A stretch of DNA of 64,000 bases from a virus. A program made the position numbers and the translations under genes. The stretch is from positions 23,183-87,182 of IMG/VR virus record IMGVR_UViG_3300025096_000008. One strand, given 5' to 3'. Positions 14,479 to 61,153 of the stretch are shown here, in pieces. Each line of letters starts with the position of its first letter. Within the stretch, counting starts at the first letter, position 1. The notes below the pieces were generated by a model. It saw only the letters and a list, made by a program, of their open reading frames with translations. It searched no databases and had not been told where the DNA came from.

Positions 14479-14486
14479 GGGAAAAA

Positions 14487-44429: not shown

Positions 44430-44480
44430 TTGATGGTATCAAAACCATAAGATATAGACATTGGTAGACAGATGCGACAA

Positions 44481-44740: not shown

Positions 44741-44762
44741 GGAACGAAAGGAGAAAAGAACA

Positions 44763-45662: not shown

Positions 45663-45764
45663 GCATAACCCCGCCCATGATATTCTTAATAATGATTTTA
45701 TTGTGTGTGTTGGTTGCAGCGGATAGAAATAGATAAAGAAAAAAAAGGAAAGAAGGATCCGAGA

Positions 45765-45965
45765 ATGAAAGAAAATAATAGTAATAATTTGCTAGCAGTA
45801 GCAGAGGGTTCTCTTGTCGGTAAGAAGATTGATGATTGTGATATCATCATCGATAAAATCAACGAGATTGAGGCACGATGCTTGGACCGCTTAGAATCAG
45901 TCGAACAGCTCCTCAACTCCCTGAAGCGGGAGATTGATTACATCCAACCCAGAGACATAAGCTAA
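45765..45965 (+). CDS. Small coiled-coil protein
   Basis: 66 residues from ATG 45765 behind AAGGATCCGAG; heptad-like from 30 to 62. Function unknown. Confidence 0.55.
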   Translation: MKENNSNNLLAVAEGSLVGKKIDDCDIIIDKINEIEARCLDRLESVEQLLNSLKREIDYIQPRDIS

Positions 45966-45969
45966 GCTT

Positions 45970-46245
45970 ATGAGCGATGGCACAAGAAGGATAACTTGGA
46001 AACAGGTAGAGAAATATCTTGATTTGTGTAAGAGGTATAATCTTGAGCCGGGCTTGGAGAAGCTGAACTACTCTTTGGTTAACGAAGATTCAGCTTCTCC
46101 GCTGTCCGGCTGGTATCCTAACGATCCCAATTGTAGGACTGAAGATTATATAATCATAATGCCAGATGGAGAGCACTACCATCACGACATATACTTAGCC
46201 AACAGCAAGAGCATGAGAGACTGGCTGTACGGCATTACCTGGTAA
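45970..46245 (+). CDS. Hypothetical protein
   Basis: 91 residues; ITWKQVEKYLDLCKRYN start and a Trp-rich end. No recognised motif. Confidence 0.55.
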   Translation: MSDGTRRITWKQVEKYLDLCKRYNLEPGLEKLNYSLVNEDSASPLSGWYPNDPNCRTEDYIIIMPDGEHYHHDIYLANSKSMRDWLYGITW

Positions 46246-46267
46246 AAGAGAAAGAGAGAGAGACAAC

Positions 46268-46513
46268 ATGGCTTCAAGAGCTAGAAAAAAAGAACTGTTC
46301 GATGCCGTAGCCAGTCGCTACGAAGCAGAGATAGCCCGCCACCGGGTAACATTACATATGTATATTAGCGAGCCAATAGCTGTGGCTGATCATTCAACCA
46401 TTGTGGAGGAGATCGCCGGTCTGGTAGATAAGCTTGCCTCGGCAAAAGACTCCCTCACAACCCTCCAGTCACTGAACGAGTACCTTTTCCTTGACGATGA
46501 CGAAGAAGAGTAA
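46268..46513 (+). CDS. Small helical protein
   Basis: 81 residues, basic helix first and an acidic end (DDDEEE). Overlaps the next gene. Confidence 0.55.
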   Translation: MASRARKKELFDAVASRYEAEIARHRVTLHMYISEPIAVADHSTIVEEIAGLVDKLASAKDSLTTLQSLNEYLFLDDDEEE

Positions 46514-46850
46514 GCCACCCGAAGAGACGACATTCGTCAATTGGTACCCATCAGAGTCCAGTTCGTATGATCGCTCAATGGCACCAGTACCAGTTGATGA
46601 AGACTGTCGAGCCTGGGCTAGTCCAAGAACACCCACCCTCAAGAAGGGAGATCTCATCCAGGATAAAGAGCATCCGGATGACTTCGGCTTGATAGTGGCT
46701 GTGGATGAAAGCAGGGAAGACCCATACAGGGTGTATGTGTTCAACCACATTGGTGAGGAAAACAGATGTTATTGGATGTTACAGTGGTATGTGGAGGAGG
46801 GCTGTGTTGTTGTATCCGAAGAGCAGCCGAGTAAAGGAGATGTTTCATAG
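46497..46850 (+). CDS. GDLV barrel family protein
   Basis: 117 residues from ATG 46497. After an N-terminal 50-residue extension come LKKGDLIQDKEHPDDFGLIV and YRVYVF. It is closest to 47226, sharing P-D-D-x-G-L-I. Confidence 0.65.
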   Translation: MTKKSKPPEETTFVNWYPSESSSYDRSMAPVPVDEDCRAWASPRTPTLKKGDLIQDKEHPDDFGLIVAVDESREDPYRVYVFNHIGEENRCYWMLQWYVEEGCVVVSEEQPSKGDVS

Positions 46851-46874
46851 TGGCGAAGAAGGAGGTAGAGAATA

Positions 46875-46961
46875 ATGGCGGACATGATAATGAACATTGG
46901 CTTCGTAATGATGATGGTAACTGTAATATTGGCAGGAATTGTCGCTCTTTGTAACCTATAG
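46875..46961 (+). CDS. 28-residue membrane microprotein
   Basis: ATG 46875 behind GAAGGAGG, a strong ribosome site, opens a single hydrophobic helix. Not recognised. Confidence 0.6.
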   Translation: MADMIMNIGFVMMMVTVILAGIVALCNL

Positions 46962-46974
46962 GAAAGAGAGGCTG

Positions 46975-47058
46975 ATGGAACTGTTTGTAACCGCGATAGG
47001 GATAGGTTATGTGGTAGTGATAGTAGCCTGTATCGTTGGTATTTTTAGATTGTTTTAG
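46975..47058 (+). CDS. 27-residue membrane microprotein
   Basis: ATG 46975 behind GAAAGAGAGG opens one hydrophobic helix (GYVVVIVACIVGIF). It follows another microprotein by 13 bases. Confidence 0.55.
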   Translation: MELFVTAIGIGYVVVIVACIVGIFRLF

Positions 47059-47065
47059 AAAAGAC

Positions 47066-47090
47066 TTGACAAAGAGTATTGTGTTATGGT
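47066..47090 (+). promoter_or_regulatory. Weak promoter-like sequence
   Basis: TTGACA (47066-47071) has TATGGT at 47085, a spacer of only 13, so the call is weak. The 135 bases to the next start contain the 23-bp repeat and GCCTGCTTACTGCCTGCCTG-like short repeats. Confidence 0.3.
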
Positions 47091-47106
47091 AGTGTTATAA
47101 GATGTA

Positions 47107-47129
47107 TAAAAGATCGCCCCGATTTTTTC
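47107..47129 (+). repeat. 23-bp direct repeat, copy 2
   Basis: Exact copy of 44481-44503, 2.6 kb apart. Confidence 0.7.
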
Positions 47130-47225
47130 GCGGTAATTTTTTCCACAAACAACGAGCCTGCTTACTGCCTGCCTGCTTAGCTGCTCAAAGCTCAAAATGC
47201 TTAGGATGCTAACTCAGGAGATGTT

Positions 47226-47579
47226 TTGAAGAAAGAACCACTATTAGAGCTTGACCTAGGGACCATAATCTACGACAGAGAGTGGCCAGACGACGTAGGC
47301 TTGATTTGTGCCAAGGACGAGGGTCGCTCTCTGTATCTGATCCGTTGGTGGAATTGGGGAAACTTTAGCCCCATATGGATTAAGGCTAGTTATGTGGAAC
47401 ACTCCTGCAGTGAGTTGACAATGGAAGATCTGCCCCTCTATTACGAGCGACTACAGAAATGCCACGAAAATGCCGAGAAGGGTAAGGAATATTATGATAT
47501 TGCCGAGGCAGAGCTAGATGCTGATCTCTATGCAGCAGGCATGTTGGGGCTGCCCTACGACAGCGAGGAGGAAGAATGA
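47226..47579 (+). CDS. GDLV-type barrel family protein, TTG start
   Basis: 117 residues from TTG 47226 behind AGGAGAT. LDLGTIIYDREWPDDVGLICAK and YLIRWWNWGN match the family core with G-T-I-I in place of G-D-L-I. The C-terminal 45 residues are an acidic helix. Confidence 0.6.
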   Translation: MKKEPLLELDLGTIIYDREWPDDVGLICAKDEGRSLYLIRWWNWGNFSPIWIKASYVEHSCSELTMEDLPLYYERLQKCHENAEKGKEYYDIAEAELDADLYAAGMLGLPYDSEEEE

Positions 47580-47606
47580 GCCGAGAGAGTAAAAGAAATA
47601 AATATT

Positions 47607-47807
47607 ATGAATATCCAGAAGCTAAAGAGAAAGATATTACAGATAGCATATAGAATGCTTATGGTAGAGATAGACTTCCAGAACAAATGTGATCACTGCT
47701 TTGAGAAGAAAGAGTGGCAAGGAAAAGACGGAAGCTCATTGTGTGATAAGCACTATAAAGAAACATTAGGTAGGTTAGGTAAGAAAGGAGTTGATAATGC
47801 CATATAA
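47607..47807 (+). CDS. Small zinc-finger-like protein
   Basis: 66 residues; C-D-H-C and C-D-K-H form a possible metal site. Overlaps the GIY-YIG gene by 11 bases. Confidence 0.55.
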   Translation: MNIQKLKRKILQIAYRMLMVEIDFQNKCDHCFEKKEWQGKDGSSLCDKHYKETLGRLGKKGVDNAI

Positions 47808-48348
47808 GCAGAGAGAGTGTACGAGGTGTGAAGCTTCTTATATTCCGAATTCGAATAGCCAAAAATATTGCAAAGAATGTGCCCCAAAGGCATATAAAGA
47901 AGGCAATAAACGATACCGCCAGGATAACCCAGGGAAGGTCAAAGCCATCTATGCGCAAGTCTACCAAGAAAAGAAAGAGCAGGATATTGCTTGCCTGTAC
48001 TCAATATTAAACAAGATGACTGATCGGGGCTATATCGGCGAGACGGTAGGATTTGAAAGGAGAGTATATGAACACAAAAAGAACCTCCAGGGAGGACGGC
48101 ACCCCAACTCACTCATCCAAAAAGACTACGACAAGTATGGTGCTGATGCTTTTGAATTCTCGATGGTAAAAGAAATAAATAAAGAAGACTTCCAGAGCGA
48201 GAAGGAGCTGAAAGAGTGCCTAAAAGTAGAGGAAGCAATGCTGGTATTAGAGGAAGTAGAGGAAGGCAAAGAGTTGTATAACTTGGCATTAAATCTACCC
48301 ATAACATCCATACCGGCTGTCCTTAGAGGTAGAGAAACATTTAGGTAA
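47797..48348 (+). CDS. GIY-YIG endonuclease with N-terminal zinc ribbon
   Basis: 183 residues from ATG 47797 behind AAAGGAG. C-T-R-C and C-K-E-C pairs form a zinc module; then LYSILNKMTDRGYIGET is the GIY-YIG core, followed by RRVYEHKKNL and a possible catalytic E in EEAML. It resembles free-standing homing nucleases that spread among phages. Confidence 0.75.
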   Translation: MPYKQRECTRCEASYIPNSNSQKYCKECAPKAYKEGNKRYRQDNPGKVKAIYAQVYQEKKEQDIACLYSILNKMTDRGYIGETVGFERRVYEHKKNLQGGRHPNSLIQKDYDKYGADAFEFSMVKEINKEDFQSEKELKECLKVEEAMLVLEEVEEGKELYNLALNLPITSIPAVLRGRETFR

Positions 48349-48359
48349 GAAGGAATAGA

Positions 48360-48485
48360 ATGATTCATATATGTCCAATTGAGATAGCAGCAGTATTGGG
48401 AATGGTCCCGGTAATACCATACTTGATGGCAAGACTTCGAACGCTAGCCATGAGGCAAGGCGAGCAAGCCAGCAACCACAAGTAA
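48360..48485 (+). CDS. Small membrane protein
   Basis: 41 residues from ATG 48360 behind GAAGGAA; one hydrophobic helix (IAAVLGMVPVIPYLM) and a polar tail. Confidence 0.5.
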   Translation: MIHICPIEIAAVLGMVPVIPYLMARLRTLAMRQGEQASNHK

Positions 48486-48520
48486 AGATAATAAGCATCA
48501 GCAAGGAGAAATAATAAGCG

Positions 48521-48862
48521 ATGATACAAAAAATAAAAAACATATTAGGTAGTATAGCAAACAAGATAGACAATAACCTAATGAAGACAGAGCTAGCAAA
48601 AGAGAAGTATCATATAGCATACCCAGTAATGTTATGTGTATTGTCTTATGGATTGTTTATAGTAGCTACATTGTTAGCTGTAGAAGTATTGATGATGAAG
48701 AAAGCTGATCCATTAGAACTACTAGTTGTAATACACTCAGTAATCTTAGGAGCAATATGCTTGTTCGCTATGTTCAAGAGTTCCTTCTCTGTAGGAGTGC
48801 ATGTACATAGATACCAAGCAAAGAAGGAAGAGCAAGCCAAACAGCAGCCAAAACAAGCCTAA
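48521..48862 (+). CDS. Two-helix membrane protein
   Basis: 113 residues behind AAGGAGA; hydrophobic segments near 34-60 and 68-90, C-terminal Q/K/A-rich tail. The region is richer in ATA/TTA/GTA codons than its neighbours. Confidence 0.6.
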   Translation: MIQKIKNILGSIANKIDNNLMKTELAKEKYHIAYPVMLCVLSYGLFIVATLLAVEVLMMKKADPLELLVVIHSVILGAICLFAMFKSSFSVGVHVHRYQAKKEEQAKQQPKQA

Positions 48863-49169
48863 TTTTATTATTATATAAGGGGGAAAAGGAGTAGTTGGAG
48901 CTACAAAGCTCTAACAGTAGAAGTGGTGGTGCCTGTATAGTATAATAAGGTTATATAAATATAAGGGATAAGGATAAGCAAGGGATACTAATGAGGTACT
49001 GGGATATAGTGAAAAAGCTAGTAGTATCTACTCACAATATAAGTAGTCAGTCAATACCCCTTCGTTCTTTTATATAATAAATAGCTCCCCCTTGTAAGGG
49101 TACGGAATTGCTAAGCATTTTAGGGTGTGATTTATATCACAGATCTAGTGCTTTTTCTTGATTAAAAGC
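48863..49169. other. Long AT-rich intergenic region
   Basis: There is no convincing gene in about 300 bases; a 28-codon frame from ATG 48991 has only a weak ribosome site. TAGTATAATAAGG near 48936 could be a -10 box. A CRP-like palindrome is at 49126-49141. Confidence 0.5.
49126..49141 (+). promoter_or_regulatory. CRP/FNR-like palindrome TGTGATTTATATCACA
   Basis: A perfect 6-base half-site pair TGTGAT/ATCACA. Its centre is about 72 bases before the expected transcription start of the next promoter, a class I activator distance. A host regulator could bind. Confidence 0.5.
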
Positions 49170-49198
49170 TTGACAGATAGAGATCACTCTGCTACAGT
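49170..49198 (+). promoter_or_regulatory. Promoter with AGATCACT operator-like repeats, copy 1
   Basis: TTGACA (49170-49175), 17 bases containing AGAGATCACT, TACAGT (49193-49198). The 40 bases after it contain further AGAGATCACT and AGATCACC copies up to the start at 49240. It is nearly the same as 53407. Confidence 0.7.
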
Positions 49199-49239
49199 AG
49201 ATCATATAGAGAGATCACTTTTAGGAAAGGCAGATCACC

Positions 49240-49506
49240 ATGACCAAGCACCTCACCAGCACCCAGCTCAGTGTTCAAGAGCTCCTTGTACTACGATTCG
49301 CGGCACGAGATGTAACCCGATTTGTTGAACACCTCGACGACGAGATGCTAGGCGAGTTGTATGCTGCCGTCAAGGCGGAGCGAGATGAGCGCTCATGCTT
49401 CAACGACGACGACATATGTTATGCTCCCCTCTTCGAGGAGTCTAGCTATTACGACACCAACGAGGAGAGCAACTTGGATTGGAACCAGAAGCGAGGAGAC
49501 CTATAA
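49240..49506 (+). CDS. Hypothetical acidic protein
   Basis: 88 residues behind AGGAAAGG, with a long helix at the start and acidic end. No family recognised. Confidence 0.6.
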   Translation: MTKHLTSTQLSVQELLVLRFAARDVTRFVEHLDDEMLGELYAAVKAERDERSCFNDDDICYAPLFEESSYYDTNEESNLDWNQKRGDL

Positions 49507-49700
49507 TGGATATCAAAGTAGGATCATTAGTGAAGAACAAGAACACCCAAGAGATTGGTCTAGTAACTAAGCTTGGCGATTTGGTAGCAATAGTTAACTA
49601 TTGGGATATCGTCGATGGCAGGATTCAACGGCAAGACCAATCTGGGCATGAGCTCATTGCTAGCCTAGAACACTTTCACGATTACGACTTAACTGTTTAA
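49506..49700 (+). CDS. GDLV-type barrel family protein
   Basis: 64 residues, MDIKVGSLVKNKN, EIGLVTK and VAIVNYW; G-S-L-V replaces G-D-L-V. Starts at the last base of the upstream stop. Confidence 0.6.
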   Translation: MDIKVGSLVKNKNTQEIGLVTKLGDLVAIVNYWDIVDGRIQRQDQSGHELIASLEHFHDYDLTV

Positions 49701-49723
49701 CTTAAGAAGAAGGATATAAGATT

Positions 49724-49888
49724 ATGAAACACTACACAGAAAACACTAGCATTATGGGAACACCTTTACCTCCGAGCAAAGACGAGAATGAATGGGTACT
49801 ATCTAATCCAGAGTATAATATGGGTGATGATACTAACCTACTTAAATTTGCCGTCCATCTAGAACAGCTAGCTAGCCTAGGATTATAA
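49724..49888 (+). CDS. Small hypothetical protein
   Basis: 54 residues from ATG 49724 behind AAGGAT; no recognised motif. Confidence 0.55.
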   Translation: MKHYTENTSIMGTPLPPSKDENEWVLSNPEYNMGDDTNLLKFAVHLEQLASLGL

Positions 49889-49892
49889 GAAC

Positions 49893-50084
49893 ATGCTTAA
49901 GCCAGGCGATATCGTAAGACATGTATATAAGAACTGGACCGGCATTGTGGAGAGTGTGATAGATACATACTGGTACCATGTCAAGTGGACACGAGCCGAC
50001 GGGCGCGAGCTAGGTCGAGCACACTGGAGCACTTCACACCTAGCACAATCACTTAGTCTTATCACAAAGGAAGACTTTATCTAG
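49893..50084 (+). CDS. GDLV-type barrel family protein
   Basis: 63 residues, MLKPGDIVRHVY, WTGIVES and WYHVKW follow the family core. Confidence 0.65.
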   Translation: MLKPGDIVRHVYKNWTGIVESVIDTYWYHVKWTRADGRELGRAHWSTSHLAQSLSLITKEDFI

Positions 50085-50096
50085 CTATGAACGACA

Positions 50097-50145
50097 GTTC
50101 GCCCAGTAACCATCGCCCACTAAACCCTAGGATCAATCCAATGAC
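50097..50145 (+). repeat. 49-bp direct repeat, copy 1
   Basis: Repeated at 50348-50396 with two changes. Both copies end at an ATG, so a translation start region was duplicated. Confidence 0.85.
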
Positions 50146-50374
50146 TAACTATGAACGACATCAGGGAATCTATACATACAAAGCTATTGAGAAAGGCACC
50201 GACGTGCTTGTTCTGGATCCCCAGTCAGACAGATACCAGTGGCTAGGCAAAGCAGCAGAGTCATGGATACCCATGACCCGATGGGAGAGTGTTAGCGTTA
50301 AGCTAGCATTCGAAGACGGGACCACCGAGGAGTATCAACGGCGAACTGTTCGCCCAGTAACCATCACCCACTAA
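50141..50374 (+). CDS. Hypothetical protein
   Basis: 77 residues from ATG 50141, the start equivalent to that of the duplicated copy; ATG 50087 in frame is an alternative giving 95. Contains KGTDVLVLDP and a W-E-S-V-S-V-K strand, perhaps another barrel. Confidence 0.5.
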   Translation: MTNYERHQGIYTYKAIEKGTDVLVLDPQSDRYQWLGKAAESWIPMTRWESVSVKLAFEDGTTEEYQRRTVRPVTITH

Positions 50375-50396
50375 ACCCTAGGATCAATACAATGAC
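50348..50396 (+). repeat. 49-bp direct repeat, copy 2
   Basis: Second copy, spanning the end of one gene and the start of the next. Confidence 0.85.
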
Positions 50397-50574
50397 AAAG
50401 CTGACCGAAGCAATGAAAGCAAAATGGCAAGAACAACGAGCAGAGCGAGCGGCTGAGATAGCAGCATGGAAGCGACCTATCCCATGGCGGCTAGCTAACG
50501 TTGCCGAAATGGAGCGGTATGATCGAGAAGATGAACAAGGTCGCCCAGTACGAAAGGTAGCAACAACAATATGA
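50392..50574 (+). CDS. Small hypothetical protein
   Basis: 60 residues, basic helix MTKLTEAMKAKWQEQRAER first. No family recognised. Confidence 0.5.
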   Translation: MTKLTEAMKAKWQEQRAERAAEIAAWKRPIPWRLANVAEMERYDREDEQGRPVRKVATTI

Positions 50575-50756
50575 TTAATGACGAAACACTAGAGAGCATC
50601 AAGCCGCACCAATTGGTGGTATCTACCGATGGTGCACCCGCCAAGATAGGCGTTGTATTGGAAGTCGGCGAAGACGGGTGCTGCCAAGTATGGTGGGCAT
50701 GGACCAAAGACTGGTCCTTCTCCGTGGAAGATACAGCCAACTTGGCTCGATTCTAG
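50571..50756 (+). CDS. Barrel-like family protein
   Basis: 61 residues; KPHQLVVSTDGAPAKIGVVL and CQVWWAWTKDW fit the family with H-Q-L-V in place of G-D-L-V. ATGA overlap with the gene before. Confidence 0.6.
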   Translation: MINDETLESIKPHQLVVSTDGAPAKIGVVLEVGEDGCCQVWWAWTKDWSFSVEDTANLARF

Positions 50757-50768
50757 AAAGGATAAATA

Positions 50769-50999
50769 ATGTCTTACTTCAGTAACTATGATACAACAAC
50801 AAAGCGGACCATTATCAATTGTGCCGCTAAGGATATTATCAATAATGAGGTCCACCTCAGAACAGAGATGTTAGACCAGCTACTCGAAGCACTCTTACAC
50901 GAGAGAAACCATAGAGATAGAGAAGAGCGAGAGGCTCGGGACTTCGAACGGCATGCCTACCTCTACAAGTGGATCAACGAAACTCCCGAGGAGAAATAA
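50769..50999 (+). CDS. Small hypothetical protein
   Basis: 76 residues behind AAAGGA; helical, R/E-rich. It resembles the helix of 49240 (LLEALLHERNHRDREE versus LYAAVKAERDER). Confidence 0.55.
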   Translation: MSYFSNYDTTTKRTIINCAAKDIINNEVHLRTEMLDQLLEALLHERNHRDREEREARDFERHAYLYKWINETPEEK

Positions 51000-51003
51000 A
51001 ACA

Positions 51004-51282
51004 ATGTTACAAGTAACACTAAGAATGTTGTACACCCCAGAGAATCATACCTTTCCTGCTGATCTTAAGATTCTTATCGAGGCATATAAAAAGGATTTAG
51101 AGCATGCCGTATCTCATAGGGATCAGCATGGCGGCAAAGGCAAAACCTATGACCGCTACAAGCAGAACATCTTAGATGCAAACAATGCCATCTATAACTT
51201 AGAGAAGCAGTTAGCTCTCTACCAACCTTATGTAACACCCGATGGTGAAATTTACCAAGAACCCACCCAACAAGGAGAATAA
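51004..51282 (+). CDS. Small hypothetical protein
   Basis: 92 residues from ATG 51004 behind GAGGAG; helical with a Gln/Pro end. No family recognised. Confidence 0.55.
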   Translation: MLQVTLRMLYTPENHTFPADLKILIEAYKKDLEHAVSHRDQHGGKGKTYDRYKQNILDANNAIYNLEKQLALYQPYVTPDGEIYQEPTQQGE

Positions 51283-51285
51283 CAT

Positions 51286-51561
51286 ATGCCCTGGTCTTAT
51301 AATGCAATCGATTATCAAGGAAACAAGATTGGATCCATTTTTGGACTACTCACTTTTATGAGCGAGTATAGAAATTTAAATGATGAACAAAAGGAAGAGT
51401 TAGGTAAGCTCAAGCAACGATACTACCTACACAAGTACATCACACCATCAGACATCAAGATGGTATTCAGTATGATTGAGGATACCAAGCAGCTTAAGAA
51501 GAAGCAAGCTAAGACAAAGAAGAAGCCAGCAACTAAACCCAAGGAAGCTAGCAAGTCATGA
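51286..51561 (+). CDS. Small hypothetical protein with Lys-rich tail
   Basis: 91 residues behind CAAGGAG; C-terminal K-K-P-A-T-K-P-K tail may bind nucleic acid. Confidence 0.6.
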   Translation: MPWSYNAIDYQGNKIGSIFGLLTFMSEYRNLNDEQKEELGKLKQRYYLHKYITPSDIKMVFSMIEDTKQLKKKQAKTKKKPATKPKEASKS

Positions 51562-51644
51562 CACCAATCGATATCATAGTAGGCGGATCCCTGGGTGTTA
51601 TGGGCATCGTCAGCATAATCATCATCGCAATGAACAATGTTTAA
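51558..51644 (+). CDS. 28-residue membrane microprotein
   Basis: ATG 51558 overlaps the upstream stop and follows AAGGAAG; one hydrophobic helix (GVMGIVSIIIIAM). Confidence 0.5.
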   Translation: MTPIDIIVGGSLGVMGIVSIIIIAMNNV

Positions 51645-51680
51645 TCGCGATATATAAAGAAAATAAAAAAGGATACCCAG

Positions 51681-51827
51681 ATGGAAGACAATTGTTACAA
51701 GTGTAAAGCAAGTGAGTATGAGAGTACAGTCATTGAAGACGAGAAGGGTAAGCTAATATGCACAGACTGCTATGATAAGAAGAGCAGCAAACAGAAGAGC
51801 CGTGAAGCAAATAAATTATTTATCTAA
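51681..51827 (+). CDS. Small zinc-ribbon protein
   Basis: 48 residues from ATG 51681 behind AAAGGAT; C-Y-K-C and C-T-D-C pairs 24 residues apart form a zinc ribbon. Confidence 0.6.
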   Translation: MEDNCYKCKASEYESTVIEDEKGKLICTDCYDKKSSKQKSREANKLFI

Positions 51828-51845
51828 AGCAGGGGAAGAGCAAGA

Positions 51846-51863
51846 GGGGGGGTACTACCCCCC
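51846..51863. repeat. G/C-run hairpin
   Basis: Seven G (846-852), TACTA, six C (858-863). A strong small hairpin in a 138-base gap without genes; no T run follows. Confidence 0.6.
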
Positions 51864-51965
51864 TACCCCGAATCTATGTCCCAATGTAGGCTAAACAGGC
51901 AACCGGCGCCTAAGTACGTTTGAAATAGCGGAGAAAATTTTACCAGATTTGAAGGGTGCTAAAAA

Positions 51966-52148
51966 ATGCCCAGAAAAAAAAGAGAGAGTTGTAAGATGAA
52001 AGAAAAGTTGTATAATATTGTAAGGTTCCATTTCAAAGGACCAGAAGAAGTCATTGATTACGGTTACACACTAGAAGAAGCACAAGAGCATTGCGAGCGT
52101 GAAGACACAAACGGCGAAGGCTGGTTCGATGCTTACAGAGAACAATAA
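51966..52148 (+). CDS. Small hypothetical protein
   Basis: 60 residues (50 if ATG 51996 is used). YNIVRFHFKG, YTLEEAQEHCE and GWFDAYREQ are the pattern of a short family widespread in phages, of unknown function. Confidence 0.6.
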   Translation: MPRKKRESCKMKEKLYNIVRFHFKGPEEVIDYGYTLEEAQEHCEREDTNGEGWFDAYREQ

Positions 52149-52165
52149 ATTGAGGAAGGTATAAT

Positions 52166-52447
52166 ATGGGAACACCAGCACCGATTAATGTAGGCGACTT
52201 AGTGGTTCATGTTCGGATGGATGTGAATGGTGTCGTGCTAAGCAAGAAGAATCAAACATTAACAGTGTATAGAATGTATTGGCTTACCGATACGGGTTGG
52301 ATGAAACAGGCACCCATGTATGTAACGAGAGATGAGATAATATTAGCCGAAGAGCTAACACTTAAAGAGAAAAATGATTGCTTTAACAAGGGGCTCTGTG
52401 GAAGATGCCTTCAGTTAGGCGGAGGATGTAGAAATGAAACAAGATAA
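52166..52447 (+). CDS. GDLV barrel family protein
   Basis: 93 residues behind GAGGAAGG; INVGDLVVHV, VNGVVLS, VYRMYWLTDTGW. The end has C-G-R-C and further Cys, an added metal site. Confidence 0.65.
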   Translation: MGTPAPINVGDLVVHVRMDVNGVVLSKKNQTLTVYRMYWLTDTGWMKQAPMYVTRDEIILAEELTLKEKNDCFNKGLCGRCLQLGGGCRNETR

Positions 52448-52871
52448 AGTGGTAATAACATCGATGTATGCTAATCCTATCCATCCAGGGCACATTGAGT
52501 GCCTACAGGCAGCAAAGGCTTTGGGGGATTACTTAATTGTGATTGTGAATAACGACAAGCAACAGAAGCTTAAGACAGGCACAATGTTTCAGGACCAGTT
52601 CTTTAGGAAGACTGTTGTAGGAGCACTCAAGCCGGTGGACGAGACATTCATGTCAATTGATGAGGATGGGTCTGTCTGTGAGAGCATACGATCTGTTGTG
52701 GAGCGGTGTAGCCCGCATAGTGAGGTTATCTTCGCCAAGGGTGGTGACAGGTTCGCAGATAACATTCCAGAGGTTGATGTCTGTAAAGAGTTGGGTGTGG
52801 AAATTGTAGATGGCTTAGGGAAAAAGATACACAATAGCTCCAAGTACCGCATTGCCGCCATACTTAGATAA
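52434..52871 (+). CDS. Cytidylyltransferase-like nucleotidyltransferase
   Basis: 145 residues behind GGAGGATG. YANPIH17-P-G-H20 is the H-x-G-H-type motif of the HIGH nucleotidyltransferase fold; VIVNND is the second. Such enzymes join CTP or ATP to glycerol-3-phosphate, heptose or similar. FAKGGDR is near the usual nucleotide site. It may make a precursor for surface sugars; the substrate is unknown. Confidence 0.75.
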   Translation: MKQDKVVITSMYANPIHPGHIECLQAAKALGDYLIVIVNNDKQQKLKTGTMFQDQFFRKTVVGALKPVDETFMSIDEDGSVCESIRSVVERCSPHSEVIFAKGGDRFADNIPEVDVCKELGVEIVDGLGKKIHNSSKYRIAAILR

Positions 52872-53108
52872 GTGGAAGTCGGTGACTTAGTAATATTTCA
52901 GCATGGGTCGTATACAAAGCGACACCTAGGTGTGGGTATAATCTTCAAGAAGAGGGAAATGGAGAAAGGCGAGAACCTGTATTTCAAGGAAGGTGTGTTA
53001 GAGGTGTATTGGTCAGCCACTGGCGCCAAGATGGTCTTTCCCGTCAACTCAAGCATGCTAGAACCATGTTTCGTTGTGGAGGGCTCTACGGATGCCGAAG
53101 CCGATTGA
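52872..53108 (+). CDS. GDLV barrel family protein, GTG start
   Basis: 78 residues from GTG 52872, directly after the previous stop; MEVGDLVIFQHG, GVGIIFK and VYWSATGAKMVF. Confidence 0.65.
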   Translation: MEVGDLVIFQHGSYTKRHLGVGIIFKKREMEKGENLYFKEGVLEVYWSATGAKMVFPVNSSMLEPCFVVEGSTDAEAD

Positions 53109-53283
53109 TGTAGGTTCACTGGTAAAGTTCAAGAATGATTACAACATTCGGTGTGGCTATGGCATTGTCGTAGTTTCCGGAAGCCTTAACTCGGAAATTT
53201 ATTGGCTTAGTGATAACAAAACAGAGACTACATTTACCATGGTATTAGAGGAAGTGAAGTGGATTGACTTACCAGAGCTGTAA
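53092..53283 (+). CDS. GDLV-type barrel family protein
   Basis: 63 residues from ATG 53092 behind GGAGG; IDVGSLVKFKND, GYGIVVV and IYWLSDN. Confidence 0.65.
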   Translation: MPKPIDVGSLVKFKNDYNIRCGYGIVVVSGSLNSEIYWLSDNKTETTFTMVLEEVKWIDLPEL

Positions 53284-53406
53284 GTAGCCGAAAAATAAGC
53301 ACTTTGTAAGTAGTTAGAAAATAAGCAGAATAAAGTGTGGATCTGCTGACTGTAAGTGCCTAAAAAAATTGGCGAAAAAAAATGTCGTTTTTCGTTGATT
53401 ATGTTC

Positions 53407-53435
53407 TTGACAGGGAGAGATCACTATGCTACAGT
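53407..53435 (+). promoter_or_regulatory. Promoter with AGATCACT operator-like repeats, copy 2
   Basis: TTGACA (53407-53412), 17 bases containing AGAGATCACT, TACAGT (53430-53435), then AGTGATCT, AGAGATCACT and CAGATCAC up to the start at 53478. It is a near copy of the region 49170-49240. The 120 bases before it hold no gene. Confidence 0.7.
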
Positions 53436-53477
53436 GATCTATATACAGAGAGATCACTTTAAGAAAGGGCAGATCAC

Positions 53478-53660
53478 ATGAAAGATCGCATGAAAATCAA
53501 ACCAATACTTGATTACTACTGGACTGGCGAACACACTCTAGATAGTGATAAAGTTTATGATGTCGAGCTAGCAACAAACCAACCGGGTTGGGAGAAGCAT
53601 GGTCTAGTCTTTGTTGAGGGCTATTTGTTAACTTCAGAAGAATATGAGGTGGTAGGATGA
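53478..53660 (+). CDS. Small hypothetical protein
   Basis: 60 residues (ATG 53490 possible). Beta-rich with Trp/Tyr; no recognised family. Confidence 0.55.
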   Translation: MKDRMKIKPILDYYWTGEHTLDSDKVYDVELATNQPGWEKHGLVFVEGYLLTSEEYEVVG

Positions 53661-53785
53661 AGGAAGTTTTCAAAAGTCTTTTTGAAGAAGAATGTTACAC
53701 ATTTTTAGATAACAATTCCCATATCAATGGGGTTGTTGAAAAAGATGTTTTTTCGGGTTATTTCAAAGTTTTAGACTTAGGCTAG
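53657..53785 (+). CDS. Small hypothetical protein
   Basis: 42 residues from ATG 53657 overlapping the previous stop, behind AGGTGGTAGG. No recognised family. Confidence 0.5.
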   Translation: MKEVFKSLFEEECYTFLDNNSHINGVVEKDVFSGYFKVLDLG

Positions 53786-53795
53786 GAAAAGAATA

Positions 53796-54131
53796 ATGGA
53801 AAATCTAGAAGTTGGTGATTTAGTATTCTTTCACCGTGAGGTAGATGGTGAGCCTGGTGCCGGCATTAAGAACGGTAGAGCCTGGAAAGGTATTATCACT
53901 GGTCCGGTATCAGAAGAAAAGAAGGACTGTGCTGACTGGGAAGTTAAGTGGCTATTCGATACCGATGGTAACAACTCTGAACACAATTGTGCTCATTGGA
54001 GTTGGGAACTTGTAAAGGCAGAGGATCAAGGCAAGCCATGGGAACGGCTAGACACATATGTTGCCAATGGTGGTTTAATGAAAGAACTAGAAGCACAGTT
54101 ATTTGGCGATAACCCAATAGAAGGAGAATAA
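53796..54131 (+). CDS. GDLV barrel family protein
   Basis: 111 residues; LEVGDLVFFHRE, WKGIITG and WEVKWLFDTD, with a 40-residue helical tail. Confidence 0.65.
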   Translation: MENLEVGDLVFFHREVDGEPGAGIKNGRAWKGIITGPVSEEKKDCADWEVKWLFDTDGNNSEHNCAHWSWELVKAEDQGKPWERLDTYVANGGLMKELEAQLFGDNPIEGE

Positions 54132-54376
54132 TGCTAGCAACCCATAGAGCAAAGAAGGATGCCTCAAGGCGGACCAAGAACCGGTTTAGAGAACATACCC
54201 TAGTGTTTGTTAAGAAACTACCAGTATGGTCAGACACTTGGATCAAGAACGAAATCGATAGTGTATTTAGAGGCACCAGCATTTTGTTCGAGAGTGTAGA
54301 GAAGGATGAAAAAGGTAAGTTTGCTAAGTGGTGTGGATGGATTCCCGCTAGTGAAGTTGAGAGGATAGAAGAATGA
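54131..54376 (+). CDS. Small hypothetical protein
   Basis: 81 residues behind AAGGAG. Basic N-terminus (RAKKDASRRTKNRFREH), then strands ending KWCGWIPASEV that may form a barrel. Confidence 0.55.
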   Translation: MLATHRAKKDASRRTKNRFREHTLVFVKKLPVWSDTWIKNEIDSVFRGTSILFESVEKDEKGKFAKWCGWIPASEVERIEE

Positions 54377-54576
54377 CCGTATTGAACTACCATAAACAAC
54401 CTGGGACAGTCTTCCCCATAGAAGAGGCTAAGAGTTTAGTGTTGGAAAACATCCGATGGGAAACAGATGGCTGGGATTATAGAATCGAAACAGTCAACAC
54501 TGATTCCAGAGGAAACAACACCACGGCTAAAGTGAGAGTATACGATGACGAAAATATATTCGTTGGATACCTATAG
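54373..54576 (+). CDS. Small hypothetical protein
   Basis: 67 residues behind GAGGA; beta-rich second half. Overlaps neighbours at both ends. Confidence 0.55.
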   Translation: MTVLNYHKQPGTVFPIEEAKSLVLENIRWETDGWDYRIETVNTDSRGNNTTAKVRVYDDENIFVGYL

Positions 54577-54766
54577 GCGAATCAAGGTCCGTACAGTGGA
54601 CCTCACAGAGATGCCGGATGATTTGCTGATGCTGCTTCTGAATGGATCCATGTCCTATAGTGACGCAGCTAAGGCATACCCCGGTCCCATCTGTACCATC
54701 ATAGAGGAGCCAGCCGATAAAGCAGCACCTCCTCCATTGCCGGAAGATGCCGACTGTGATGAGTAG
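54545..54766 (+). CDS. Small hypothetical protein
   Basis: 73 residues; Pro/Asp-rich end. It overlaps the previous gene by 32 bases. No family recognised. Confidence 0.5.
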   Translation: MTKIYSLDTYRRIKVRTVDLTEMPDDLLMLLLNGSMSYSDAAKAYPGPICTIIEEPADKAAPPPLPEDADCDE

Positions 54767-54773
54767 CTGAAAC

Positions 54774-54863
54774 ATGCTATTAGCCGCCAAAGTGATTGTT
54801 GTATTTTGTTTAACATACGATTTGCTAACACTATTTGATATTTACCAGAAAAGAGAACGATAA
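54774..54863 (+). CDS. 29-residue membrane microprotein
   Basis: ATG 54774 opens a hydrophobic helix (LLAAKVIVVFCLTYDLLTLF) and stops one base into the next start. No ribosome site is clear. Confidence 0.4.
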   Translation: MLLAAKVIVVFCLTYDLLTLFDIYQKRER

Positions 54864-55042
54864 TGATCAACACCAAGAAGAAGAAGCCCGATATGGTGAC
54901 AGTGCTGCTAACACAGCAAGAGATCCAAGCATTATATTTTACCCTAGAAGCGGCAATGAATAAGAGCGGCGTTGTGAGAGAAGAACACCATATGCCCATT
55001 AACTGGATCCTTAATTGTATCGAGGAAGAAGTGTCCCAATGA
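54863..55042 (+). CDS. Small hypothetical protein
   Basis: 59 residues from ATG 54863; N-terminal K-K-K-K, then TVLLTQQEIQALYFTLEAAM, a helical segment. Overlaps the lipoprotein gene start. Confidence 0.55.
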   Translation: MINTKKKKPDMVTVLLTQQEIQALYFTLEAAMNKSGVVREEHHMPINWILNCIEEEVSQ

Positions 55043-55356
55043 GAATCCGAGTTAACACAATCATCTTACTAGCACTCCTGGCTCTCTCAATTGGACTCTG
55101 TAGCTCTTGTGTTGTCGTTGTGGATGATACACCGGCTGAAAGCCGGGAGGGCACACAGGTCATCGTGAAGCATTCTGATACTGATGAAAGCTGTGACGAA
55201 GTACCTCACGAGCACCGAGCTCAGCGGTGTGATGTATATGAGGGAAGAGATTGTTGTGAGTGGTATATTGGTGATGGATGTTTTGAGAAGTATTGCTTCT
55301 ATTATCACAATTGCGAATGGCATTGGTACGGCACGACTTGTGAGGTTCAAGAATGA
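55039..55356 (+). CDS. Small Cys-rich lipoprotein
   Basis: 105 residues from ATG 55039 (ATGA overlap). A hydrophobic signal ends LCSSC, a lipobox-like site at C24, followed by VVVVDDTP. The mature part has ten Cys including C-C-E-W-Y and may be disulfide-bonded. It resembles secreted proteins of bacteria more than phage proteins. Confidence 0.6.
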   Translation: MRIRVNTIILLALLALSIGLCSSCVVVVDDTPAESREGTQVIVKHSDTDESCDEVPHEHRAQRCDVYEGRDCCEWYIGDGCFEKYCFYYHNCEWHWYGTTCEVQE

Positions 55357-55640
55357 CAAACAAATGGAAGCATCCTGCACCACCACATGATTTTGAAATT
55401 GGTGATCTCGTGGTTGAGTCTGGGTATGATTTTGGCAAAGGCTGTGGTGTAGTGGTAGACTTAGCTAATACTAGCCCACACTTTGCCGGCGGAACCTATC
55501 GAATGGGCACAATACAAATCTTTTGGACTGGTGACGAGTACGAGGCTGCTGGTATGGACGGCAAAGATCCTGGTGTCTATTGGGCTCTCCCTCATAAGAT
55601 AAAGAAACTAATCAAAGCAGAGGAACAAAATGATGGATGA
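55353..55640 (+). CDS. GDLV barrel family protein
   Basis: 95 residues; FEIGDLVVESGYDFGKGCGV, IQIFWTGDEYE and VYWALPHKI. Confidence 0.65.
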   Translation: MTNKWKHPAPPHDFEIGDLVVESGYDFGKGCGVVVDLANTSPHFAGGTYRMGTIQIFWTGDEYEAAGMDGKDPGVYWALPHKIKKLIKAEEQNDG

Positions 55641-55920
55641 GAATAAACTAAACCGTGGTCGCTGGCCAATAGAACATCTTATAACTAGCGGTGTTGAGGC
55701 GAAGCGGAAGCGAGCCGAAGAAGAAATAGCTGGCTATGACATGTCTAAAGCAAGAAAAAATCTTGCCGATTTTGACAATGTGCTTTGGTGCATACGAAAC
55801 CTGAAAAAAAATTATGCCGACGAAAAAAATATCGTCGAGGCTTGTCGTCTAATTTCTATCGTCTATCGATGGAATCTAACACACTGGCGAGCCGGAACTC
55901 AACACTGGAGGTTGATCTAA
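55630..55920 (+). CDS. Small hypothetical protein
   Basis: 96 residues (95 from ATG 55633) behind GAGGAA; helical, R/K/E-rich. Confidence 0.55.
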   Translation: MMDENKLNRGRWPIEHLITSGVEAKRKRAEEEIAGYDMSKARKNLADFDNVLWCIRNLKKNYADEKNIVEACRLISIVYRWNLTHWRAGTQHWRLI

Positions 55921-56195
55921 TGGAAGAGCATAATAGAAAAAATGATAAGTTCTGGGTGGTGAGCAAGCCGAGCAAGACATGGGATTTAGATTTCTTATCA
56001 AACTATCTCACTATCGAAGACATATGTTTTTGTACTTGTTATCGAGGGCTTATGACCCAAACTTTGGGTGGACTCACTCCGTCAGATATAGTTGGTGTTT
56101 TTGTGAGCGAAAAACCGGCTAAAGTATGTGCAGAACAGATTCTAAAACAATGTATTATCGAAAAAACCTTAGAAGAAAGCAAGAGCAAGTTATGA
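55920..56195 (+). CDS. Small hypothetical protein
   Basis: 91 residues from ATG 55920 at the last base of the upstream stop; C-F-C-T-C cluster in the centre. No family recognised. Confidence 0.55.
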   Translation: MEEHNRKNDKFWVVSKPSKTWDLDFLSNYLTIEDICFCTCYRGLMTQTLGGLTPSDIVGVFVSEKPAKVCAEQILKQCIIEKTLEESKSKL

Positions 56196-56197
56196 TT

Positions 56198-56365
56198 ATG
56201 AAAGTTGGAGATTTGGTAGAAGTTTCTATTGACTGGAGAGATGAGATTGGTGTTATCGTTGGCTTCGACTCTGAAAAGGATCCTGTAATTAAAGTTGATG
56301 ATGGCTGCATTGTTGATTACCGAGAGAATGTAAGGGTGTTAAATGAAAAAAGGCAATATCTATAA
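56198..56365 (+). CDS. GDLV barrel family protein, minimal form
   Basis: 55 residues (57 from ATG 56192), MKVGDLVEVSID, EIGVIVG and PVIKVDDG; one of the shortest members and a good guide to the core. Confidence 0.65.
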   Translation: MKVGDLVEVSIDWRDEIGVIVGFDSEKDPVIKVDDGCIVDYRENVRVLNEKRQYL

Positions 56366-56543
56366 GTTCAGTTATATCTCGGAAAACTCAGAGCTAAATT
56401 ACAAGAATATCATGTTCCTTGGTGAAGAGTGGAGCTATCCCGAAGGTGGCTTCGCTGTAAGAAATTATAAAGTTTTAATACTTGGAGAAATTTCGCCTGT
56501 CACAATAGACAAGAGCCTAGTTAGGTATATGACACCTGTGTAG
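56343..56543 (+). CDS. Barrel-like protein
   Basis: 66 residues; MKKGNIYKFSYIS and NYKVLILGEISP. Remote member of the family. Confidence 0.55.
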   Translation: MKKGNIYKFSYISENSELNYKNIMFLGEEWSYPEGGFAVRNYKVLILGEISPVTIDKSLVRYMTPV

Positions 56544-56576
56544 GTGTGTAAGAAGAACAGGGAGCACCATGGCACA

Positions 56577-56810
56577 ATGGGAAATGAAGAAGATACATAT
56601 ATTACTATAAATGATGTGAGACCTGGTGATTTCGTATGTATTGTTCCACGAACATGGTGGTCTGCTCTTCGTGGAGAATATAAGATCGAATTCGGTACCA
56701 TAGTATCAAAGCCGGAAGATCTAAGGGGTGGTGTAAGAGTGTATTCATCTTCCAGAGGAACATGGATTGTTTTCCCACACCAGTGGTATTTTAGGAAGTT
56801 AGACACATGA
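56577..56810 (+). CDS. GDLV-type barrel family protein
   Basis: 77 residues from ATG 56577 (GTG 56544 possible); VRPGDFVCIVPRTW, FGTIVSK and TWIVFPHQWYF. Confidence 0.6.
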   Translation: MGNEEDTYITINDVRPGDFVCIVPRTWWSALRGEYKIEFGTIVSKPEDLRGGVRVYSSSRGTWIVFPHQWYFRKLDT

Positions 56811-57019
56811 AAACAGGCGATTTAGTGGAGTGGGATGGTTTATTTACTGAGTATGGTAAGACATATATGTCTAAACAATATCTCGGGCTTGGAATCATAA
56901 TTGACGATACTAGCTATCGAGAAACTGTCATTGTCCAGTGGCTTAATTCTGGGTGGAAGCTTCGCTGCGTAAAGGAGTCTCTCAGGATAGCGACTAAAGA
57001 ACAGCAAGACTTCCTGTAG
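56807..57019 (+). CDS. GDLV barrel family protein
   Basis: 70 residues; MKTGDLVEWDGL, LGLGIIID and VIVQWLNSGW. ATGA overlap with the gene before. Confidence 0.65.
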   Translation: MKTGDLVEWDGLFTEYGKTYMSKQYLGLGIIIDDTSYRETVIVQWLNSGWKLRCVKESLRIATKEQQDFL

Positions 57020-57039
57020 AAAGATAGTTGATTTATTTT

Positions 57040-57068
57040 TTGACTTTTCTCGAACATTCTGATAATAT
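57040..57068 (+). promoter_or_regulatory. Sigma70-like promoter
   Basis: TTGACT (57040-57045), 17 bases, TAATAT (57063-57068). Confidence 0.6.
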
Positions 57069-57073
57069 AACAT

Positions 57074-58003
57074 ATGGAGGATTCCTTGACAGATGTGAGC
57101 CAAAGATTTAAGGACTATGGTGAAGAGCATTGCTGGCAGTATGAAATCCGTCTTCGGAATCTAGAAGAGGATATATCGCTAGCTGGGCTTAAGCCAGGAG
57201 ATGCTGAGTCTCTTCATGTTTCCGATTTCAAATTTGAATATGTTGATAAGTCGGAAAAAGATAAGTGTGCAGAGATAAGTGACTTCATAAAGAAGCACGA
57301 ATGGCTCGGCAAGCTTCCGAACCGTCCTACACAACGATTTACAGCCCGGCTCAAGGAAGGTAATGTCCTTGCTGGGGTTATCATTATGGCTGTTCCAAAT
57401 ACCTTCTCTCACCTCCTTGGGAAAGAGAATATCGGCATCGAAAAGTTAATCTCTCGTGGCGCCTGTATATCATGGTCGCCTAAGAGCCTAGGTTCTTGGC
57501 TCGTAACGAAGTCTATCAAGTGGATGGTACAGAATACTGATTTTCGATACTTCACAGCATACTCCGATCCGGAAGCAAAAGAATTAGGGACAATCTATCA
57601 AGCTTGTAACTTTATTTATCTTGGCAAAGGCTCCGGAGTAGCAAAGCAGTATTTCGATCCGGAGAATCCCAAGCAGGGGTGGTTCAGCGGCAGAGAATTC
57701 AGGAAGAAATCAAAGTATTATAGATATGCCAAGGAGGTGGGTATCAGCAAAGAACAATGGGCACTATGGATGAAGAAGTATAGCCCAGACTGGACATTGG
57801 TTCCTCCAGCGGTAAAGACTATGGTAAAGGAAAGAGAGAGAGTGTATCGAGACAGTTGCCATGTTCGAGAGGTAGTTTCGAAGCATAAATATTGTTATAT
57901 CCTCGGGAAAACAAAAGCCGAGACAAAGAGCTTGAGAAAATTATTTATCGAGAAAAATCCAGATAAAATTAACCTTCCTTATCCTAAGAATCGTGGAGAG
58001 TGA
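57074..58003 (+). CDS. Mom-like GNAT protein
   Basis: The 309-residue protein has LISRGACISWSPKSLGSWLV, then FRYFTAYSDPEAKELGTIYQ and ACNFIYLGKG. This matches the core of Mom, the phage Mu enzyme that modifies adenine (A/S-x-S-D-P-x-x-x-x-x-G-T-I-Y-Q-A). Mom protects phage DNA from restriction. A dedicated promoter precedes it. ATG 57074 lies at the expected transcription start; TTG 57086, with GGAGG five bases before it, may be the real start. Confidence 0.68.
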   Translation: MEDSLTDVSQRFKDYGEEHCWQYEIRLRNLEEDISLAGLKPGDAESLHVSDFKFEYVDKSEKDKCAEISDFIKKHEWLGKLPNRPTQRFTARLKEGNVLAGVIIMAVPNTFSHLLGKENIGIEKLISRGACISWSPKSLGSWLVTKSIKWMVQNTDFRYFTAYSDPEAKELGTIYQACNFIYLGKGSGVAKQYFDPENPKQGWFSGREFRKKSKYYRYAKEVGISKEQWALWMKKYSPDWTLVPPAVKTMVKERERVYRDSCHVREVVSKHKYCYILGKTKAETKSLRKLFIEKNPDKINLPYPKNRGE

Positions 58004-58005
58004 GA

Positions 58006-58194
58006 ATGAAAAGCGGTGATTTAGTAAAGTGTAGAGATGACGAAAACTACCTTTTTGGAATGGGCTTGGTTGTCAAAGAAGAGACAAGAATGGTTAAGGT
58101 GCTATGGCTCTCTGGGTTCGCCGATGATGGCTTCGGCAGAATTGATGATCCGGCTGACTGGAACTGGAAATGCAACCTGGAGCTAGCGAAATGA
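58006..58194 (+). CDS. GDLV barrel family protein
   Basis: 62 residues from ATG 58006 behind GGAGAG; MKSGDLVKCRDD, GMGLVVK and VKVLWLSGF. Confidence 0.65.
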   Translation: MKSGDLVKCRDDENYLFGMGLVVKEETRMVKVLWLSGFADDGFGRIDDPADWNWKCNLELAK

Positions 58195-58413: not shown

Positions 58414-58489
58414 GGGGCTATAGCTCAGTTGGGAGAGCACTTGCATGGCATGCAAGAGGTCATCGGTTCGAACCCGATTAGCTCCACCA
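58414..58489 (+). tRNA. tRNA-Ala (anticodon GGC)
   Basis: Acceptor GGGGCTA/TAGCTCC, D arm AGCTC...GAGC, anticodon stem CTTGC/GCAAG with loop ATGGCAT, T arm ATCGG TTCGAAC CCGAT and encoded CCA. All arms pair, with one G-T in the acceptor. Confidence 0.93.
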
Positions 58490-58504
58490 TACGGAGCTCT
58501 AAAG

Positions 58505-59155
58505 ATGAAAAAAATCCTACTGATATTATCTATGTTAATACTGCCGGCGACTGCCCATGCTTACGAAGGCTCATCGCTTGTAATTTCTGCTGAGGAAGCC
58601 TTTGATTCATTGTCCTCAACAGGAGAAGCAACACCAGAAGATACCGAAGATAAACTTAACTATTTCGGGCTGGGACTGACAGCGGGCTCGACTTCGGGGA
58701 TTGGGATCACAAACAAGTTCCATTCAAACTATGGACTCGGCTACCAACTAACTGGTGGTATCTTTGGCACTCCCGGCGACTTCATCTTCGCCTCTGTTGG
58801 AACTCAGCTTACCTACACTTTCGGCAGTATCAAGAATGCGAGGATATATGGCATTACTGGTATCGGAAGCTTCTTGAACCGGACTGTTGAAGGGGAATGG
58901 GATAGGTGTGACTGGAACGAAGAAACTCAGATGGAAGAGAACTGTATTCACATACCAGAGGTAGTTTCCTATGGCGCCATCTTCAACTTTGGTGCTGGAC
59001 TTGGTATAGAATTGATTCTATGGGATACTATTGGACTTTCTTTCGACTTACCATTATCAACTTCCATTTCAATTGATAGCGGAATGTCCGGAGGATATGT
59101 AAATCTTCTCGGCTTCTTTCCGATACCAAATGCTTCTTTAGTGTACTATTTCTAA
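58505..59155 (+). CDS. Outer-membrane beta-barrel-like protein
   Basis: 216 residues from ATG 58505 behind CGGAG, with a signal peptide MKKILLILSMLILPATAHA cut before Y. The mature part has alternating hydrophobic strands (YFGLGLTAG, GYQLTGGIFG, YGAIFNFGAGLGIEL) and ends VYYF, the C-terminal aromatic that guides barrel assembly by BAM. It is late-adjacent and could alter the host surface, as with superinfection-exclusion proteins, but this is inference. Confidence 0.65.
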   Translation: MKKILLILSMLILPATAHAYEGSSLVISAEEAFDSLSSTGEATPEDTEDKLNYFGLGLTAGSTSGIGITNKFHSNYGLGYQLTGGIFGTPGDFIFASVGTQLTYTFGSIKNARIYGITGIGSFLNRTVEGEWDRCDWNEETQMEENCIHIPEVVSYGAIFNFGAGLGIELILWDTIGLSFDLPLSTSISIDSGMSGGYVNLLGFFPIPNASLVYYF

Positions 59156-61149: not shown

Positions 61150-61153
61150 TTTG

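Follow-up and report, generated by a model that had tools for sequence, protein, structure and literature searches.

A fast-turnover field of small genes in a large T4-like phage and a family of predicted SH3-like barrels arrayed in its relatives

Bases 23,183-87,182 of the 87-kb IMG/VR virus record IMGVR_UViG_3300025096_000008 make up the 64,000-nt window analysed here, which contains a field of 46 small genes (g01-g46; Table 1). All 46 lie on the plus strand, their median length is 76.5 aa, and 42 are shorter than 120 codons, in agreement with the dense small-gene block described in a first-pass annotation made from the sequence alone. Among these genes we found members of one family of short proteins, here called barrels, which are predicted to adopt an SH3-like fold and which in related phages form tandem arrays with a common joint between neighbouring genes.

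The capsid protein encoded in the same record has T4-type (gp23-type) major capsid proteins as its best matches, and the record also encodes DNA polymerase III alpha, GroEL and a Mom-like protein; judged by this gene content, the virus infects bacteria and is a large uncultivated T4-like myophage. Further myophage structural genes were recognised by eye. The polymerase is only ~30% identical to its best deposited matches, indicating that no close phage has been deposited, and when the 16 kb around the field was compared with deposited phages the tRNA gene was the sole matching part. Relatives sought in viral contigs with the right-flank protein (58,445-59,152) and with the gene at 43,224-44,357 were not found. 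The lineage is frequent among uncultivated viruses, with 349 polymerase-bearing stretches in IMG/VR, and is probably one of large marine phages, 'marine' being based on some record titles. All genomes compared are uncultivated and mostly fragments, and their gene starts are predicted. Four contigs are named below: A15 from L015, a 96%-identical relative, B18 from L018, C05 from L005, and D08 from L008.

The small-gene field, its barrels and its turnover

A family profile built from 16 seeds and iterated, with E<0.003 as the cut-off for membership, recovered 49 members in the window and the first relatives and matched none of 5,420 decoys. Ten of the 46 field genes are firm members by two profiles and three more are borderline, which falls well short of the half of the field that had been taken for barrel paralogues; four additional members lie in the window outside the field. 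Another six genes (g01, g03, g18, g33, g42 and g43) are barrel-like in appearance, and their membership of this family is not supported. The ratio of nonsynonymous to synonymous substitution (dN/dS) is ~0.22 for the barrels versus 0.10 for core genes, which indicates purifying selection and thus argues that the barrels do something.

An AlphaFold model of an array module, made with 62 sequences, reached a pLDDT (predicted local distance difference test) of 87 and shows five strands in SH3-like order, and the barrels are one real family of ~60-residue proteins with a predicted SH3-like fold. The nearest solved folds found by Foldseek are PWWP, R67 DHFR, BAH and HspQ-type barrels at a template modelling (TM) score of ~0.7, with no match of this model having an E value below 0.001; a first model, of g46 with a shallow alignment, gave weak fold matches only. 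Profile similarity was seen to the KOW regions of SPT5, NusG and uL24 (E 0.01-0.08), and the curated Pfam KOW/NusG-type model matched one of 62 members at E 0.002 and did not match them as a family. Scans against Pfam and PHROGs gave isolated weak matches or nothing, no family in either covering the barrels, and a PADLOC scan for defence proteins gave no match. The predicted five-strand barrel is thus the same as that of known SH3-like small barrels (KOW of NusG/SPT5, PWWP, R67 DHFR and HspQ), but the family differs from these in having no Pfam family, marginal sequence similarity and no Foldseek match at the above level.

As to the other field genes, the homing nuclease g11 and the Mom-like gene g45, both named in the first-pass annotation, are borne out by Pfam and PHROG matches (Table 1). 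The membrane microproteins that it listed are visible in the sequence as the hydrophobic g12, g13 and g37. As to its zinc ribbons, short Cys-rich genes (g10 and g24) are visible, although g10 has no family match. Anti-host genes, for which the field had been proposed as the likeliest place, were not demonstrated; none of the field proteins tested has a match among known families of anti-defence or takeover proteins.

Compared with A15, the core of the window (10,306 to 39,514, ~29 kb) contains four insertions or deletions (indels) of more than 100 bp and the field contains seven in the 7.6 kb covered, coverage by close relatives extending to 51.9 kb, so that indels per kb are ~7 times as frequent in the field. 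The binomial probability that 7 of 11 indels fall within 21% of the aligned length is ~0.002 by hand calculation. The recent rearrangement suspected from repeats and duplicated leaders is therefore seen as an indel rate above the background of the genome itself. The field junctions in this comparison are mostly direct repeats of 10-26 bp, often at ribosome sites or gene starts: the loss of g02-g03 is flanked by a 10-nt repeat, g11 is absent at the corresponding A15 site with a 17-nt imperfect repeat at the junction, and an extra 203-bp segment before g15 in A15 is bounded by an exact 18-nt repeat at the g15 start. A further GIY-YIG-like frame, with 27% identity to g11, lies in a 418-bp insert that A15 carries at 14,481, immediately 5' of the dUTPase-like gene 14,487. 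The DNA-modification cassette (39.5-44.4 kb) is largely replaced in A15 and was not found in C05 or B18. Pooled synonymous divergence is ~0.2 in the field, two wrong pairings (g03 and g11) being included in the pool, versus 0.09 in core genes, and many individual field genes exceed the core value; such divergence would be consistent with import from other lineages.

In B18 and C05 the flanking genes are kept, and the internal genes have been lost, gained and reordered; the B18 relative of g46, for example, occupies another position within the field. It is noteworthy that g25 and its B18 copy are 91% identical, yet the flanking gene at 38,574 is merely 64% identical. Strict conservation of gene order therefore does not hold, and the fixed flanks and changing content of B18 and C05, along with the many indels in A15, uphold the earlier description of an accessory field and show active gene turnover. 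The Mom-like gene adjoins GroEL in the relatives L004, L005 and L007-L010, and in the window it lies inside the field, ~36 kb from GroEL (19,495-21,060). Its location in the field is thus a derived one, reached either through a move or after loss and regain; no Mom-like gene is present in A15, whose record includes the GroEL region. Modular turnover of the field and of the arrays described below is in our view very likely.

Tandem arrays and their joint in related phages

A DNA pattern for genes starting with MKVGDLV matched at least 120 stretches of viral contigs, and profile searches of the stretches listed and of the first relatives gave at least 659 barrel genes, with up to 30 in 14.8 kb. 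Among the matches listed, neighbouring barrel genes overlap by exactly 14 nt in 224 pairs at 61 loci, and the second most frequent overlap between barrels, 4 nt, occurs 44 times. Among 541 cases of non-barrel neighbours, 24 show the 14-nt overlap, and unrecognised family members may account for some of these. The search pattern specified the MKVGDLV start only, and neither the overlap nor the upstream half of the joint was part of the query. Relative to the start codon, the ~33-nt joint extends from about -13 to +19, with the consensus ttGGAGGTnaTcArTGAAAGTcGGTGATtTgGT, and information content drops to near zero on either side. Read in one frame it is the gene end LEVI(N/S)ESR-stop, and read in the other it is the next gene start MKVGDLV, with GGAGGT as the ribosome site. 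The same joints are carried by D08, which was reached independently via its Mom-like gene.

Evidence for exchange at the joint comes from L048 and L055, whose flanks are 99.5-100% identical and which differ by one additional barrel gene in L048. The extra 176 bp has exact copies of ATGAAAGTCGGTGATTTGGT (20 nt) at both ends, and the L055 joint is intact. Alignment blocks start or end at joints in 64 of 194 and 47 of 188 cases, versus 13 and 6 for random points; some of this excess is to be expected, the joint being the only DNA that is conserved. Of 516 modules, 486 have their best match on another contig, which indicates that the arrays draw on a shared pool, and only 22 within their own locus; on these counts we rejected the idea that modules arise mainly by local tandem duplication.

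The window holds family members and no array. Nevertheless, a profile built almost wholly from the arrays of other phages recovers its g41, g28, g44 and g29 (E 1e-7 to 6e-4), and the field of the window is a dispersed version of the array system. The overlap of g41 and g42, here 23 nt (..VLNEKR.. over ATGAAAAAAGG), and the start of g28 are possible relics of array joints.

The arrays follow one phage lineage. The same polymerase is present in 32 of 39 array records, at 54-66% identity in 31 and 42% in one. When records were sampled through this polymerase, without regard to barrels, 8-17 barrels were found in each of the seven new records that reach 75 kb or more, and 0-9 in shorter fragments. 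Eight other large phages each had no match or a single weak one. Array modules were also searched for among deposited phages (50,697 records) at the nucleotide and protein levels, with results that were empty or at chance level. The joint pattern was found in 84,980 prokaryote genomes at five stretches, all in metagenome-assembled genomes, and one of the five has a gene homologous to a phage gene of the window. In the stretch from the WOR-3 metagenome-assembled 'chromosome' CP070664.1 (L148), a barrel array of phage type has a run of N nearby. From this homologue and the N run, the five stretches are probably phage contigs, L148 probably being a mis-joined one. The near absence of arrays from deposited phages and prokaryote genomes would explain why the family has no name.

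Exchange, function and known parallels

We consider it probable that the field is a fast-turnover accessory region in which a lineage-wide family of SH3-like barrels is exchanged at short repeats, with arrays in the relatives. Recombination at short repeats near the starts of genes would bring genes into the field and remove them from it. The full form, in the relatives, would be the tandem array with its joint read as gene end, ribosome site and next gene start, and exchange may occur via general homologous recombination or annealing at the joints. Because the joint doubles in this way, one gene could be added or removed with its neighbours left intact. The stronger proposal that the arrays are an integrase-free, swap-ready library, in which the joint is also a recombination site and specificities against hosts or rivals are reshuffled gene by gene, seems to us evenly balanced between right and wrong. 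As for what the barrels do, we tentatively favour the idea that they are diversified binders, with a separate host or rival target for each of them, in takeover or counter-defence.

Several points weigh against this explanation. No intact 14-nt overlap joint is present in the window, where the barrels are dispersed and diverged, and the array mechanism is for this reason read from the relatives. A single clean one-module event was found; the other breakpoints come from diverged pairs, in which ends at joints are partly expected. Finally, the targeting role of the barrels is one that we infer, and all the genomes are uncultivated.

Other explanations can be offered for the same family. The phage's own MoxR-type ATPase and the DUF2201 protein (metallopeptidase/VWA-like) that accompanies it might form a machine for remodelling or proteolysis, with the barrels as its adaptors or cofactors and barrel diversity serving many substrates. 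Among the matches listed, the two members of the MoxR-like/DUF2201 pair (28,399-31,460 in the window) are the commonest barrel neighbours, 21 each versus 9, 6 and 5 for the next core genes; one window barrel sits between the two genes, and the Lon specificity factor 5ycq is among the fold matches of the barrels. We regard this role as unlikely, however, as many arrays lie away from the pair (e.g. L098, L132 and L073) and several cultured phages whose ATPase is related (Vibrio phage Va1, PA5oct) have 0-1 weak barrel match. Likewise doubtful is a role as nucleic-acid-binding KOW/Tudor-like proteins acting on phage or host transcription or translation, with diversity reflecting different sites. 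Every match behind it, be it the profile similarity to KOW regions or the fold matches to KOW, PWWP and Tudor-type barrels, is marginal, the SH3-like fold has many roles, and the conserved GDLV, G and W look structural.

Neutral or selfish expansion, in which arrays grow and shrink through repeat recombination and diversity brings no benefit, would suit joint repeats that are well fitted for unequal exchange and a barrel copy number that varies widely among records. The dN/dS of the barrels, frames that are open throughout the arrays, and the few modules best matched in their own locus, which indicate that local duplication is not the main source, make such expansion improbable. The short conserved joint at every module boundary also recalls integron- or shufflon-like cassette shuffling by an integrase or invertase, with the joint as a site-specific recombination site. 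But the joint is fully explained by coding, and tyrosine recombinase families were found in none of 31 records, several of them 185-200 kb, with 14 of 14 control genomes positive and with serine recombinases and transposases not searched for; we consider this shuffling very improbable, and an integron-like mechanism was set aside. With no tyrosine recombinase found, homologous exchange at the joints is the likely mechanism. A RecA/UvsX-like gene recognised by eye at 1,281-2,441 could supply homologous recombination.

Returning to the exchange of barrels at short repeats, the system resembles three known ones in part. As a genome region, the field belongs to a known kind, the hyperplastic regions of T4-like and other large phages (e.g. 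PMC2147016, PMC2984593 and PMC2993671), with which it has in common a conserved core, fixed flanks and a variable block of many small genes without assigned function, homing nucleases among them. It departs from this kind in that one expanded barrel family fills such regions lineage-wide, in relatives as tandem arrays, and in that the dual-coding joint is at once the coding sequence of two genes, a ribosome site and a repeat. Integron gene cassettes likewise gain and lose single genes at a short repeated site and form arrays of unrelated-looking modules; unlike these, the barrel arrays have no integrase found, a joint that itself codes for both neighbours, and modules of one protein family, and they are not filed as an integron since no recombinase of that type was found. 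The boundary or linker sequences of mosaic phages (lambdoid phages and mycobacteriophages; PMC3029335) are also short common sequences at gene borders where mosaic exchange occurs, whereas here the same joint recurs many times per genome and couples translation of the neighbours. No description of such joint-linked barrel arrays was found in the open-access literature, and their novelty is provisional. In any case, what had been a vague field of tiny phage genes can now be described as a defined family that can be searched for, whose architecture is clear and whose exchange rule can be tested, and the joint offers a direct means to watch phage gene exchange gene by gene. Should the barrels prove to bind proteins of the host, every array would amount to a ready-made panel of inhibitors made by phages.

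Other features of the window

Table 1. Features of the window, with positions counted from its first base
Feature	Position	Strand	Basis
Left-flank gene, ribonucleotide reductase small subunit-like by eye; anchor for comparisons	38,574-39,470	+	relatives at 64-99% identity
DNA-modification cassette bordering the field	39,515-44,350	+	Pfam N6_N4_Mtase 4e-41
Hyperplastic accessory field, g01-g46	44,576-58,194	+	gene list, turnover comparison
Barrel g08	46,497-46,850	+	profile E 1e-9
Borderline barrel g09, similar to g08	47,226-47,579	+	profile E 0.05
GIY-YIG homing nuclease g11	47,797-48,348	+	Pfam GIY-YIG 5e-8; PHROG homing endonuclease 1e-13
Leader copy 1, 5' of g14, promoter-like TTGACA and GAGATCACT boxes	49,164-49,238	+	
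Barrel g15	49,506-49,700	+	family profile
Barrel g17	49,893-50,084	+	profile E 9e-6
55-nt direct repeat around g18, 93%	50,094-50,148 and 50,345-50,399	+	
Barrel g20	50,571-50,756	+	profile E 4e-6
Barrel g26; C-terminal Cys cluster common to relatives	52,166-52,447	+	profile E 2e-8
Barrel g28; start retains 3' half of array joint (GTGGAAGTCGGTGACTTAGT)	52,872-53,108	+	profile
Barrel g29	53,092-53,283	+	profile E 2e-8
Leader copy 2, 5' of g30	53,402-53,477	+	
Borderline barrel g32	53,796-54,131	+	profile E 0.02
Borderline barrel g38	55,353-55,640	+	profile E 0.04
Barrel g41	56,198-56,365	+	profile
Barrel g44	56,807-57,019	+	profile
Mom-like DNA modification gene g45	57,074-58,003	+	Pfam Mom 4.5e-10; PHROG Mom-like 1.5e-15
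Barrel g46	58,006-58,194	+	profile E 4e-11
tRNA-Ala, right edge of the field	58,414-58,489	+	
Barrel outside the field	25,864-26,142	+	profile
Barrel outside the field, beside MoxR-like/DUF2201 pair	29,975-30,295	+	profile
Barrel outside the field	34,023-34,226	+	profile
Barrel outside the field, right flank	61,151-61,402	+	profile

The repeats noted in the first-pass annotation are present with corrected sizes. The one given as 49 bp is the 55-nt repeat of Table 1, a duplication scar whose left copy resembles the end of g18, and the one given as 23 bp is an exact 24-nt repeat (44,480-44,503 and 47,106-47,129). This 24-nt element, ATAAAAGATCGCCCCGATTTTTTC, has a short hairpin and a T run and is possibly a terminator or leader element. 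The duplicated leaders were also confirmed, the two copies having promoter and leader in common. The field has no excess of sigma-70-like promoters as such (28 versus 31.7 expected). Strong TTGACA/TATAAT-type promoters are seen at 432, 25,910, 34,308, 39,485, 43,152, 44,528, 49,170, 53,407 and other positions, and a recurring TGATCT or AGTGATCTCT box in or adjoining the promoter spacer suggests a common phage regulator. Six of the seven exact copies of the AGTGATCTCT box are in or beside strong promoters or within the two leaders; its resemblance to an operator is simply noted here, its excess over chance at one mismatch being modest (15 versus 7.8 expected).

The cassette contains an N6/N4 methylase at 41,919-42,908, plus neighbours. 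A cytidylyltransferase-like gene (52,434-52,871; Pfam CTP_transf_like 4e-8) is isolated amid barrels, directly 5' of g28. The gene at 45,396-45,662 encodes a small protein that is GroES-like by eye, without Pfam or PHROG support, and our guess is that it is a partner of the GroEL described above. Finally, the product of the gene at 23,881-25,836 is long and predicted to be secreted; it contains numerous DGxDNDCDGxxDE repeats, has a VWA-like end, is unusual for a phage and is conserved in one relative (64%).

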